Of a stretch of DNA of 35,181 nucleotides, positions 2,917-33,372 are shown piece by piece (the first letter of the stretch is position 1; each line of letters begins with the position of its first letter). Under the pieces are notes generated by a model. It worked only from the letters and a program-made list of their open reading frames with translations. It was not told the DNA's origin and did no database searches. The DNA comes from Acholeplasmataceae bacterium (GTDB lineage: Bacteria > Bacillota_I > Bacilli_A > ML615J-28 > CAG-698): positions 1 through 35,181 of the forward strand of contig JAAYBG010000093.1 in assembly GCA_012718985.1 (NCBI GenBank). Reading direction: 5' to 3'. The position numbers and the translations under genes were made by a program.

Positions 2917-2959
2917 TTGACATTTTTTTAATTATCCATTATAATATTAATAATTTAAG

Positions 2960-3160
2960 AGATTTATGAGGAAGAAGAGTACTTGTTTAATGAGTTTTAG
3001 AGAGAGCCGATGGTGAAAAAGCTTACTATAAGAACAAGGAAAGACAACTTAGGAGATCAATTAATCGTTTATGTATAAAAGCGCATCACTAAAAATGGTG
3101 ATGAATTAAGGTGGCACCGCGGAATTATTCGTCCTTAAGAGAGTTCTCTTTTAAGGATTT
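2960..3160 (+). promoter_or_regulatory. T-box leader upstream of hisS-aspS; predicted specifier GAC (Asp)
   Basis: T-box AAGGTGGCACCGCGG at 3108-3122. Stem I CTTGTT (2982-2987) pairs with AACAAG (3033-3038), with loop-E-like AGTA (2978-2981) opposite GAA (3039-3041), then A-GAC-A (GAC 3043-3045). AGAGAGCCGATGGTG distal element. Terminator hairpin 3132-3157 followed by Ts. Confidence 0.92.
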
Positions 3161-22833: not shown

Positions 22834-22867
22834 TAATCATATTCATTTTACAAAATGAATATGATTA
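22834..22867. repeat. 34-nt perfect palindrome (16-bp arms, AC centre)
   Basis: TAATCATATTCATTTT-AC-AAAATGAATATGATTA, followed by TTTTTTACTTTTT. Confidence 0.85.
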
Positions 22868-23294
22868 TTTTTTACTTTTTGCTCGTGAAGAGAGGTTAAA
22901 CCTCACAAAAAAGATAATAAATAAACGTACTTTTTTTCCGTTGTTAAATAACTTGTAGATATTTTTTTTGACTTTTAGAAAAAAATTAGCTCAATAATCG
23001 TCATTTCCATTTTTAAGCCTTAAATTTCAGTTATAATCGTTTTAGTGCTTAATAACTACTAGTTAATCAAATCATATATATGAAGCAAAATAAGCGCATT
23101 TTTAGGTTGTTAGTCTTTTGTTTATTGCTTTAATAAGATTAATTCTTTTATCTCTAGGTTATGATAAATTCAAGTTTTTCATCAGATCAGAAAGAAGAAT
23201 AGGATATTTCAAGATAAATAATTCTTAAATTTTTTCAAAAATTCAATCGATTTATCAGGTACAAATCTTATTTATCATCTTAGTGCCAACAGTA

Positions 23295-28287: not shown

Positions 28288-28319
28288 AAAAAAGAGCACT
28301 AATCAATTCGATAGTGCTC
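28288..28319 (-). terminator. Terminator after the TPR gene; stop codon embedded in the stem
   Basis: Minus strand GAGCACT-atcgaattgatt-AGTGCTC-TTTTTT. Confidence 0.8.
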
Positions 28320-29093
28320 ATTTAGTTTCTGTAAATATTCCTTTGCTTTACGAACAAAATGTAATTGCTCATTGAAACCAGCAACTTCAGCAAAGATTTT
28401 TTTCGCTTCATGAAAATTACCCAACTTATATTCCAAAATTCCCAGATAGTAATTACTAGAAGACACCATTAATGGTGTTGGATTAATATTGATTACTTGT
28501 TTTATTGTTGCTTTCGTTTCGTTTAATAGATTATTACAGCGAATATTATATTTAGCAAGTAAAATTTGATAGGCGAGGATAAATTGTTGTTGTAAGGAAA
28601 CAGGTGATGTTTCAATTAATTTGTTTAATTGTACTAGCAAAGTTTGTGTTTCTGCGACTTTGTCGTAATTTAGAAAATAATTAATCCAAGCGCGATAATA
28701 TAAAAATTTTGTTAACTTATTAAATTTTGGTTCAAATTCTACTAATTCGATTAAAATCTTTTTCGCTTCTTCAAAACTTCCTTTATCTAGGTAAACTTGC
28801 GCATAAGTAGTCGCTTGATACCATTTTATTTTTCTAGTTCTGACCATATTTTCATCATGAGCTTTTAATTGTTTTAAATACTCATCGGCATTACCTGTTT
28901 GCGAATAATAAATGATGATTTGCATTAGTTTTTGTTTTTCTATCTTTTTGAAAGTAAAGTTAGGCATAATTAAAAGACCAACAAGCAATGAATAAAACAA
29001 AATATTCAGGTCATCTGATAACCAAATATAACCAATTAAAAATAAAGAAACAACAATGCTGACTAACCAATAAATAAATCTTTTCTTACTCAT
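28299..29093 (-). CDS. Membrane-anchored TPR-repeat protein
   Basis: Two N-terminal TM segments, then TPR-like helices (AQVYLDKGSFEEAKKILIELVEFEP; YYLGILEYKLGNFHEAKKIFAEV). Confidence 0.75.
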   Translation of the reverse strand: MSKKRFIYWLVSIVVSLFLIGYIWLSDDLNILFYSLLVGLLIMPNFTFKKIEKQKLMQIIIYYSQTGNADEYLKQLKAHDENMVRTRKIKWYQATTYAQVYLDKGSFEEAKKILIELVEFEPKFNKLTKFLYYRAWINYFLNYDKVAETQTLLVQLNKLIETSPVSLQQQFILAYQILLAKYNIRCNNLLNETKATIKQVININPTPLMVSSSNYYLGILEYKLGNFHEAKKIFAEVAGFNEQLHFVRKAKEYLQKLNEHYRID

Positions 29094-29101
29094 TAAATCT
29101 C

Positions 29102-29878
29102 CTATAAAATCTTGTCATAAATCGTTATCCCCATTTTCTTAGCAAACAAAATAGCATTAGTTACAGCTAAATCATGAAGATGAGCAAAGTAATGAGCATC
29201 ATCTCCAACAATTACTTTCGCTTCTTGATAACGACTGACAATTCTCCAAAACTCAACACGAGGGTATAACCAGGTTAGTTCTAAATCCTTAGTGAATGTT
29301 GCAGCTCTTCTTGTTCCATTGCCATTAATTTCCAGATAAACATCATTTTTAATTGCGCTTTCAATAATTTCAATCGCGATTTTTTCAGTTAGGTCATTCC
29401 ACTCCCGATAACGAAGCATGTATAAATCCGGATGAGCAAGTATCTTGAAATATCCACTTTCCATTCCTTTTATAACAGCTTCTTTATAAGCGATGATTAA
29501 CGAATCATTCATCGGTTTATACAAATCGTATTCTATTCCATCCACCTCAACAATATGCTGCCCTAAAATTAAATAATCGTTTTCTCGATAATATTTTTGA
29601 TACAAAGAATCATATCCATCTAGGTATTCTAATTCCAATCCAGTGAAAATTTCTATTTTATCGCCATATTTTTCTTTGGCTTCTTGGATGTTAGGCAAAT
29701 AAATATTATGATATTCCTCAAGATTCATTCTATCTACCCATTTGTCCTTTAAATATCCGTGATCAGAAATACCAATATGTTCCAATCCTAACTCTATTGC
29801 TTTTTGTACATAATCAATCGGCAATCCTTCGGCGTGACCACATAAATAAGTATGCGTATGATAATTTGCTTTAGTCAT
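29102..29878 (-). CDS. PHP-domain phosphoesterase (histidinol-phosphatase-like)
   Basis: ANYHTHTYLCGHAEG, HIGISDHGYL, GLELEYLDGY, LILGQHIVEVDG, ILAHPDLYM, LEINGNGTRR, VGDDAH. Confidence 0.88.
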   Translation of the reverse strand: MTKANYHTHTYLCGHAEGLPIDYVQKAIELGLEHIGISDHGYLKDKWVDRMNLEEYHNIYLPNIQEAKEKYGDKIEIFTGLELEYLDGYDSLYQKYYRENDYLILGQHIVEVDGIEYDLYKPMNDSLIIAYKEAVIKGMESGYFKILAHPDLYMLRYREWNDLTEKIAIEIIESAIKNDVYLEINGNGTRRAATFTKDLELTWLYPRVEFWRIVSRYQEAKVIVGDDAHYFAHLHDLAVTNAILFAKKMGITIYDKIL

Positions 29879-30902
29879 TCTGATAACCTCTTGGTATTTT
29901 CATCCATTTCGCAGATCTACCTTTGCCAACAGGTTTAATATAACCAGAATCTCTTAAATTGATGAGTGCTCGATTAATGGTTGATTCGCTGACATAAGGG
30001 TGAATATTTCTAATTTCTTCTTTGGTAAACACTTCTGCCATGTTACCAATTGTCCGCTCTATATTTTCAGTCTTATTTAAATTCTGATCGAATTTATAGT
30101 TTTTAATGATTTCCTCTGTTTTCACATATCCTTTTATTATCAATTTCATCATATATCGGATAAAACCAAGGGATTGCGAATATCCTTCTTGCCAATTGAA
30201 ACTGGCGTTCATTAATTCAGTCTGAAAATTATGATAATCTTCGCTAATTAATTGGAAAAAACTGACATATTGAAAAGCTTCAATATCCGTTTTAATTATC
30301 AATAAATATAATAGTAATAAACTAGCTAGTTCATTATGAAGAGTAAATGGCTTAATATTATAAAAATCGATAAAATAATGTAAATAAAGGGTAATTTTTT
30401 CAAAACTGTTTCCCTGAAGAAGACGATCAATTTCTTCTGTAATTTCATCAATAATCAACCGCTTACTTTTCATGTTTTGACTTTGTAAAACTGATTTTTT
30501 ATCGGCACTGGTGTAATCGAATCTCACCGGTGTAGTGGCATGAGAAAAAACAAGATTGGTAATATTTAAAATATCATTGCTTTGAATTCCAAATTGATTG
30601 GGTCGTTTCTGTAGCGTCATTAAAATATCTTTCAAATTATACAATGTTGTTTCTTCCCTATTTCGAGGATTAGAATCCTTTGTAATAATTAGACGACTAC
30701 GGGCATCACTGATATCCAGTTTCAACAAAGCCCCCAAAAAATAAGCATCTCGTTCGACTGTTTGTTCTATTACGCGTTCTCGATCACTCCCAACCTCATC
30801 GGCGTATTGTTTGGAATTCCCAATATAACGATAGATTTGACCGAGAGTGACAATTACATCATTGGGTATTAAAAATCGTTTTATATTTTTGATGCAACTC
30901 AT
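29871..30902 (-). CDS. Fic-fold protein with degenerate active site and C-terminal winged helix
   Basis: HYFIDFYNIKPFTLHNELASLLLLYLL occupies the place of the Fic motif HPFxDGNGRxxRLL; downstream ISEDYHNFQTELMNASFNWQEGYSQSLGFIRYMM resembles the Fic C-terminal part; wHTH EIRNIHPYVSESTINRALINLRDSGYIKPVGKGRSAKWM. Start ATG at 30902 with GAGGTG. Confidence 0.7.
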   Translation of the reverse strand: MSCIKNIKRFLIPNDVIVTLGQIYRYIGNSKQYADEVGSDRERVIEQTVERDAYFLGALLKLDISDARSRLIITKDSNPRNREETTLYNLKDILMTLQKRPNQFGIQSNDILNITNLVFSHATTPVRFDYTSADKKSVLQSQNMKSKRLIIDEITEEIDRLLQGNSFEKITLYLHYFIDFYNIKPFTLHNELASLLLLYLLIIKTDIEAFQYVSFFQLISEDYHNFQTELMNASFNWQEGYSQSLGFIRYMMKLIIKGYVKTEEIIKNYKFDQNLNKTENIERTIGNMAEVFTKEEIRNIHPYVSESTINRALINLRDSGYIKPVGKGRSAKWMKIPRGYQND

Positions 30903-30912
30903 ACAAACACCT

Positions 30913-33372
30913 CTATTTTTGAGCAAAATCGCTACTATTTCGGGCGATGATTATTTTACTTGGCACTCCAATTTCACTAGTTTTGATTGAGGATTTTCCT
31001 GATAAATCAAATTTTACAATTCCCTCGCTGCCCTCAAGATATGCATCAACTTCAGCTAGATTTTCATTACCTTTATGGACGATTGCACAATCTATTAGAT
31101 AAGCCGGTGATTTTTTAGTTAGAGTAATGTATTGACGCCCTACATGATTTTTCTTTCCTTTTATGATTTCTAATGGTTTAATTTTCTTTATTACACCTTT
31201 CTGATTCAATAAAAGAATAATATCTTTACTATCGACGTAATAACCTCCGATTACTTCATCATCTGGCCTACTTTTCATTTCCAGCGCTTTTACACCAAAC
31301 GATGCCGGGGCAAATAAACTAATTTCATTAGAATTGTATCGATTGATAAACCCTTTTTTCGTCACCATGACTACTTCATTCTTATCTCCATCACAAATAT
31401 CTACACTGACCAACTCATCATTTTCGCGAATTTTCGTTGCTTTTAGGGCGCGCGAATATCGCTCAGCAATCAAATCGCGAATATGAGTGCGCTTAGTTAA
31501 GCCGTTTTTTGTTGTAAATAATAGATAGCGATCCGCATTGAAGTCATCGATCGGCACCGTGAAAATAATTTTTTCATCTGCTGCTATCGAAGCTAAAGTA
31601 CTAACATTTCGGCCTAAATCTTTATGCTTTACATCAGGAATCTTTTGAATTGGTAAGTAAACATAATTTCCTTGATTTGTAAATAATAATAAGGTGTCTA
31701 ATGTTGTCACATCGTATTTTGCAATAATAATATCGTTATCTTTCAACTTAGTTTCTTCATCAACAGCATAATTTTTTGGTGTCATTCGCTTAATGTAACC
31801 ATCGCGAGTAATTAAGATAATTGCATCTTCTTTCGCAATCAATTCTTTCACTTCAACCTTAACATCCTCAATTTTGTGTTCAATCTGTGTTCTTCTTGGG
31901 GATGATAATTCAGCTAATGTTGTCAATAACTCACTTTTAATCACCGATAATAAAGAAGTTTCATTTGATAAAATATCATTTAATTGTTCTACACTATGCT
32001 TTAATTCTTCTTTTTCATTTTGTAAAGCAAAAATATCGGTATTGGTCAGTTTATATAATTGTAACATTACGATAGCTTCAGCTTGTTCTTCTGAAAAATC
32101 ATATGTTGAGATTAGGTTTTCTTTGGCATCCCTTTTGTTCGCAGATGAACGGATTGTTTTTATCACTGCATCTAAAATAGATGTCATCGAAATCAGTCCC
32201 TCAACAATGTGAAGTCTTTTCTTGGCATTATGTAATTCGTAATTGCTTTTGTTGGTAACTATTTCTCGTTGATGGGCAATATAAAAATCCAAGATTTCTA
32301 ATAAGCCCATTTGTACTGGACGTTTGTTAGCAATAGCAACTACGTTAAAATTATAATTTGTTTGTAAATCGGTTGATTTAAAGAAGAAATTACGAATATA
32401 TTCAGGGTTGGCATCTTTTTTAATATCAACAACAATTCGCAGACCATCACGACCACTTTCATCGCGAATATCTATGATGCCATCAACATTTTTCAATTCA
32501 ACCACATCGCTCATTCTTTTTACTAAAACCGATTTATTCACTTCGTACGGAATTTCAGTAATTATTAATTTATAAATGTTTTTTTCTTCAATAATTTCAG
32601 TTTTCGCTTTAACAATAATTTTTCCGCGACCATTTTTATATGCACTTTTAATTCCCTCAATCCCTTGAACAATTCCTCCCGTAGGAAAATCAGGTCCTTT
32701 TACAATATTCATGATTTCCTTTAAACTGCATTCTGGATTATTCATTCGATAAATGACAGCATTAATAACCTCATCAATATTATGAGGGGGAATATCAGTA
32801 GCATATCCCGCTGAAATACCAGTAGCACCGTTCACCAGGATATTAGGATATTTTGATGGTAATACAGTAGGTTCATATTCTTCATCATCAAAATTTGGAA
32901 TGAAGCCGACCGTCTTTTTATTGATATCTTGAAGAATCGCTTCAGCGTATTTGGATAATCTAGCTTCTGTATAACGCATTGCTGCTGGAGAATCACCATC
33001 AATACTTCCGTTATTTCCATGCATATCGATTAACGGCAATCGCATCTTGAAATCTTGGGATAGGCGAGCCATCGCTTCATAGACAGCAGTATCTCCATGA
33101 GGATGGTATTTACCGATAACATCTCCGACAATACGAGCTGATTTTTTGTAAGGTTTGTTACTAAAAAGTCCTAATTTATACATAGCAAAAAGGATTCTTC
33201 GTTGAACTGGTTTCAATCCATCACGAACATCAGGAAGAGCTCGATCTTGAATAATGTATTTAGAATAACGAGCAAATCTTTCCCCGACGATAACATCTAA
33301 ATTTTCATTTAAAATTTTTTCTTCCACAAAACTGTTAACTTTTTGAACGATAGATTTAGTCTTCTTGGCCAT
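30913..33372 (-). CDS. parC: DNA topoisomerase IV subunit A
   Basis: [24 protein letters not shown] catalytic region, [20 protein letters not shown]; no GyrA-box, and [10 protein letters not shown] favours ParC over GyrA. Confidence 0.9.

Follow-up and report, generated by a model that had tools for sequence, protein, structure and literature searches.

Why is a gene for a Fic-like protein without a recognizable active site found directly behind the genes of topoisomerase IV, and what could such a protein do? This question is raised by a 343-residue protein, here named FicX, encoded in a contig of an Acholeplasmataceae bacterium (JAAYBG010000093.1; all 35,181 nucleotides are referred to as the window).

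Fold and active site of FicX

The features of the locus are collected in Table 1. The parC stop and the ficX start codon are separated by 10 bp, and 8 nt are shared by the end of ficX and the start of the PHP-domain gene. As parE is truncated by the contig end, its promoter and the predicted operator lie outside the window. Elsewhere in the window, a T-box leader (RF00230, 98.5 bits) was detected at 2957-3139 (+), upstream of hisS-aspS genes.

Table 1. Positions of ficX, its neighbours and the second copies of the inverted repeat (window coordinates, unless a locus is named)
Feature	Position	Strand	Basis
Pseudo-Fic winged-helix protein FicX, 343 aa	29871..30902	-	ORF, fold, family alignment
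Degenerate Fic motif KPFTLHNEL (Lys for His, no GNGR, second Gly position acidic)	30327..30353	-	Aligned with active paralogue and 88 homologues
ERDAYFLGALLKL, in place of the (S/T)xxxE(G/N) inhibitory helix, motif lost	30717..30755	-	Alignment
C-terminal winged helix, residues 277-336	29895..30074	-	AlphaFold secondary structure, conservation
parC, topoisomerase IV subunit A	30913..33372	-	Synteny with annotated parE/parC genes of Mariniplasma anaerobium
parE, topoisomerase IV subunit B, 5' end truncated at the contig edge	33356..35179	-	
PHP-domain phosphoesterase gene	29102..29878	-	Pfam PF02811
Membrane/TPR-type protein, within-family neighbour of FicX	28299..29093	-	PF13181
Second exact repeat copies	L068:9128-9152, L075:7895-7919, L072:3677-3701, L101:9628-9652		

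FicX had no match above the cut-off in Pfam or NCBIfam. A single-sequence phmmer search of the PDB, however, retrieved the Fic protein 8uqu_A (E 5.6e-14), and an AlphaFold model built on 34 orthologues (pLDDT 88.8) superimposed on the same structure with a TM-score of 0.90 by target, an rmsd of 2.0 Å and a Foldseek E of 1.5e-10. The model also matched SoFic (Foldseek E 2e-6), CbFic2 and others. At the C-terminus it contains helices 277-287, 294-300 and 306-318 and two wing strands, and both this secondary structure and the alignment with 21 active relatives place FicX among the winged-helix Fic proteins such as SoFic, CccR and CbFic2. The recognition helix reads SESTINRAL and the wing GKGRSAKW. 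As judged from the model, FicX has a Fic fold with the architecture of class II Fic proteins that bear a C-terminal winged helix, so that both the fold and the winged-helix ending proposed in the initial annotation were recovered.

The structure closest to FicX, 8uqu, is a Fic family protein from Bordetella bronchiseptica with a near-identical wing (GKGRxAKW), but it retains an intact HPFx(D/E)GNGR, as do two active Fic proteins of Exiguobacterium/Paenisporosarcina (L191 and L192). SoFic (3eqx/3zec) and CbFic2 (8cil), which are class II proteins with a winged helix, share overall architecture and fold with FicX, but both are active enzymes whose Fic motif is intact; CbFic2, a (de)AMPylase, has the motifs HPFDDGNGR and TSAIEG (PMC10628234). 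FicX fits neither the HPFx(D/E)GN(G/K)R of active Fic AMP transferases nor the (S/T)xxxE(G/N) of class II inhibitory helices. When it is aligned with an active paralogue encoded in the same genome, its KPF..NEL falls exactly on the HPFxDGNGR motif (HPFNDGNGR in the paralogue), and the inhibitory-motif column changes from SNEIEG in that paralogue to FLGALLKL. The degenerate motif had earlier been placed at about 30318-30356; it is real, and its exact span is that in Table 1. The genome itself has four canonical Fic-domain matches (contigs C38, C114 and C131), and the closest active paralogue, on C38 (L003), has the same Fic-winged-helix architecture.

We found that these losses extend to the whole family. 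Of 88 aligned homologues, 87 lack the catalytic His, whose column is occupied by nine residue types (K 36, Q 9, E 9, A 8, R 8, D 7, N 6, S 4, H 1). GNGR is absent from all 88, including the sole His-bearing homologue (L104), and the loop is replaced by N(E/D), with the motif Asn kept in 83/88 and the second Gly position acidic in 69/88. The inhibitory motif is absent across the entire pseudo-Fic clade. The sequence comparison indicates that loss of the active site is family-wide and not a chance reading. The loss of the catalytic His (replaced by Lys in the window protein), the loss of GNGR and the joint disappearance of catalytic and inhibitory motifs, all first noted in the window protein, were borne out across the clade.

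Degenerate Fic motifs are also found in Bartonella BepC and Bep8, which keep the Fic fold with a non-canonical motif. In Bep8 (PFxxGNE) an acidic side chain stands at the same Gly position as in FicX, where it was described as making nucleotide binding appear impossible (PMC8401265). Unlike FicX, BepC and Bep8 are host-targeted effectors with a BID domain, and they have no winged helix and no operon link to parEC. The initial annotation had instead pointed to FicT toxins (class I), which AMPylate GyrB/ParE and so share the Fic fold and the topoisomerase theme. FicT proteins, however, are small active enzymes that need a FicA antitoxin and lack a winged helix, whereas FicX has 343 residues with a winged helix, and its neighbours are parEC and PHP/TPR or kinase genes rather than a separate FicA gene. 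We rejected FicT membership on this architecture. The analogy is weak, since the FicX family descends from or neighbours the winged-helix class II Fic proteins and not class I FicT.

Distribution, linkage and conservation

In the phylogeny, a branch with SH-aLRT 99 separates the pseudo-Fic proteins, as one clade, from 21 active Fic proteins. The clade is present in Acholeplasmatales, Izemoplasmatales, Haloplasmatales and Erysipelotrichales MAGs, and, among the matches listed, strong hits to FicX came from about 120 of the 394 genomes sampled in the class. Fic-winged-helix proteins were already known; what is new here is a clade-wide pseudo-Fic family, unannotated where checked. For example, the FicX of Mariniplasma anaerobium (WP_176240150.1) is annotated ‘hypothetical protein’, and the gene order there is plsY / parE-parC-nucleoside kinase-FicX. 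Acholeplasma laidlawii is presumably another cultured host. The plsY-parE-parC-kinase-FicX-tsf block of M. anaerobium is recorded as a circular 12.8-kb ‘plasmid’ (L190; NZ_AP024413.1, 12,782 bp), which is either a tiny replicon that carries essential genes or an assembly artefact.

Linkage to topoisomerase IV was counted in the 75 GTDB loci with enough sequence. In 71 of them, parC is encoded on the same strand no more than 5 kb upstream of ficX, and in 52 the distance is at most 1 kb. The adjacency thus persists far beyond close relatives, and the operon coincidence that the initial annotation had allowed for is unlikely. The genes downstream of ficX vary by family (PHP-TPR, nadC-argS-recJ, a UvrD-like helicase or nothing; named by eye except PHP, TPR and the nadC-type QRPTase). 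The PHP phosphoesterase was considered as a core partner and rejected, as it is kept only in f1 (the family of the window), f2, f4 and one Haloplasmataceae locus (17/75). In f2, ficX has moved away from parEC and is still kept; likewise, most sampled f21 loci retain ficX with no parC within about 4.5 kb. Three loci have ORF-free stretches downstream of ficX (L107 7095-10400, L112 7095-9453 and L110 7083-9085), in which Rfam detected nothing.

Next, we compared conservation of the two parts of the protein. Among 80 pseudo-Fic proteins, mean pairwise identity was 63% in the winged helix versus 31% in the body, and by the same measure the 21 active relatives showed the reverse, 36% versus 50%. 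When pairs were matched at 30-40% body identity, the winged helix was 66% identical in pseudo-Fic pairs versus 28-30% in active pairs. Invariant positions cluster in the recognition helix (SxSTINRxL) and the wing (GKGRSAKW), both of which hardly vary. Active L191 and L192 have a near-identical helix (SEATINRVL) and wing (GLGR(S/N)AKW), suggesting that the winged-helix end was probably inherited and that it was catalysis, not the winged helix, that was dropped.

An inverted repeat at the promoter

In several families we found an inverted repeat, ATANTCA-N11-13-TGANTAT, at the promoter of the transcription unit that holds ficX. It is located at the parE promoter where ficX shares that promoter, and at the own promoter of ficX where the two are separate. 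The 16 parE promoters of f1 gave a mean score of 11.63 of 12.5 for the N11 form, compared with 9.05 (sd 0.16) for shuffles, and only spacing 11 stood out in a scan of 5-18. The motif was first spotted by eye in f1, which makes the p-values nominal, and they overstate significance because the sequences are related and not independent. Spacings 12-13 were added after viewing f13/f22 and related loci. A better test is offered by the f21 and f10 sets, which were examined after the motif had been defined (f10 with spacings restricted to 11-13).

Six f21 loci (L244-L248 and L258) have the repeat 73-93 bp upstream of ficX, and some of them show paired base changes that preserve its symmetry. In f10 (Acholeplasma and relatives), it was present in 13 of 18 parE promoters. 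None of the 19 parE promoters from genomes with ficX elsewhere or absent reached the threshold (Fisher 2e-6 and 4e-7, nominal given related sequences). Just upstream of ficX it was also found in f13/f22-type loci and f4 (L076), with spacing 12 or 13, and genome G028 has it at ficX and not at parE. Overall, 40 of 136 test regions contained the repeat, compared with 2 of 274 regions upstream of other genes in the same loci. Its place relative to the -35/-10 elements varies: in f1 it lies about 20 bp upstream of the -35, and in f10 and f13 it overlaps the promoter.

The site was absent in some lineages. It was not detected at the parE promoter of Izemoplasma loci L080-L082, L088, L093-L097, L099, L100, L102, L104 and L108, and this subgroup has a recognition helix nearly identical to that of other FicX proteins. 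Nor was it found in most f21 loci of genus g148 and several f2 loci. In Izemoplasma L080-L082, L088 and L093-L102 we observed a different common element, (T/G)ACACT(A/T)(C/T)AAA, in the stretch that separates the divergent promoters of plsY and parE. A palindromic site at its own promoter, as in the autoregulator CccR, is thus present in several families of FicX and missing in one subgroup. Taken across loci, the sequences indicate that the repeat tracks FicX rather than parE.

In several genomes the exact site occurs only once. Seven Acholeplasma genomes have an exact N12 site at the parE promoter; it is the only one in six of them, and the seventh contains one more. In several f21 and f10 genomes the sole exact N11 site is at the FicX unit. 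An exact-site search for a wider regulon in 60 genomes returned 43 sites, 9 of them at the FicX unit or parE promoter. The others were mostly inside genes or scattered, and a wider regulon was rejected. An RNA element in the intergenic regions was likewise rejected: Rfam had none near ficX, and the f1 repeat lies upstream of the -35, so that it is not transcribed from that promoter. Four f1 genomes carry a second exact repeat in non-coding DNA 1.5-2.6 kb downstream of ficX (Table 1). The window contains a perfect palindrome with the same half-sites at spacing 10 (22838-22870, aatcATATTCATtttacaaaATGAATATgatt), which is terminator-like and set in a 1.1-kb non-coding stretch between convergent genes.

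FicX as a predicted regulator of its own operon

The comparisons above point to FicX being a Fic-fold pseudoenzyme that regulates its own transcription unit by binding DNA, a reading to which we assign a probability of roughly 0.78. The protein has probably been fixed as a dedicated, autoregulating DNA-binding regulator, commonly on the topoisomerase IV operon. The initial annotation had proposed a repurposed topoisomerase-binding or DNA-binding regulator; the DNA-binding half gained strong comparative support from the conserved winged helix and the matching cis site, and the other half is weighed below. Two relatives offer precedents. The HTH of CccR from Yersinia pseudotuberculosis binds palindromes in its own promoter and represses it (PMC9755527), and CbFic2 binds DNA through its HTH (PMC10628234). 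CccR has a Fic body and a C-terminal HTH, as FicX does (PMC9755527), but it is a secreted toxin that retains the catalytic His and AMPylates FtsZ, whereas FicX lacks an active site and is encoded beside parEC.

In the proposed mechanism, a FicX dimer would bind the repeat, whose half-site centres are 18-20 bp apart, through its winged helices. FicX would most likely be an autorepressor, like CccR. This analogy and the overlap of the repeat with the promoter in f10 and f13 make repression the likelier sign, although it is not certain because the position of the repeat relative to -35/-10 varies. Where ficX shares the parE promoter, as in f1 and in Acholeplasma/Mariniplasma (f10), FicX would set the level of topoisomerase IV. 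The families with separate promoters mostly carry the site at ficX, not parE, which indicates that autoregulation is the theme common to families, with topoisomerase IV coming under control wherever its genes and ficX have one promoter. The dead Fic body would probably mediate dimerization and offer a pocket in which a ligand or partner could bind and so modulate DNA binding.

If this is true, FicX provides a clade-wide case of a Fic enzyme turned transcription regulator, with the loss of catalysis and the frozen DNA-binding end both visible in sequence. It would also point to dedicated transcriptional control of topoisomerase IV in Mollicutes relatives, of which the literature searched holds no description; a search for a parEC repressor or an Acholeplasma Fic report returned nothing relevant. 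A named predicted operator, a likely single-target regulon and cultured hosts make direct testing possible.

Could the partner sensed by the Fic body be topoisomerase IV itself? FicX would then bind ParE, and how far the single operator at the parE-parC-ficX promoter is occupied would depend on how much of the enzyme is present or on its state. Such a closed loop would control decatenation capacity by feedback and would have evolved from a topoisomerase-attacking enzyme. The idea is attractive because inactive Fic-1 (H135A) still binds ParE, but we consider it improbable. The same pull-down of ParE by dead Fic-1, the AMPylation of ParE/GrlB by some class II Fic proteins (PMC7479194) and the linkage to parEC in 71/75 testable loci would fit another alternative, in which FicX mainly acts on the topoisomerase IV protein: the dead Fic domain would bind ParE without AMPylation and inhibit, protect or localize it, and DNA binding would be secondary. 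This is unlikely, since it is the Fic body that evolves fast (31% identity) and the winged helix that is frozen, ficX is kept away from parEC in f2 and most sampled f21 loci, and the Fic-1 surface for ParE belongs to a different Fic class.

A less probable alternative is that the repeat is owned by another regulator, FicX being a passenger in a conserved operon with a winged helix that binds something else. Lineages with the same recognition helix and no repeat would be consistent with this. However, in f21, f13-type loci and G028 the repeat is at the ficX promoter and missing at the parE promoters, and it is also missing from the parE promoters of genomes without FicX. It is very doubtful that the unusual motif of FicX still supports catalysis, for example as a lyase or as a transferase that uses another nucleotide, like AnkX- or Doc-type Fic variants. 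The loop is not random, with its Asn conserved and the next residue usually acidic, but nine residue types occur in the catalytic column, neither of the phosphate-binding Gly/Arg positions is retained and constraint on the body is low. Furthermore, Doc and AnkX retain the catalytic His. Finally, a decaying Fic copy that by chance stands beside parEC in a few relatives, plausible at first sight given the active paralogues elsewhere in the genome, has next to no credibility and was rejected on breadth and conservation: the frame is intact in well over 100 genomes of several orders in a single clade, with strong purifying selection on the winged helix and persistent linkage.
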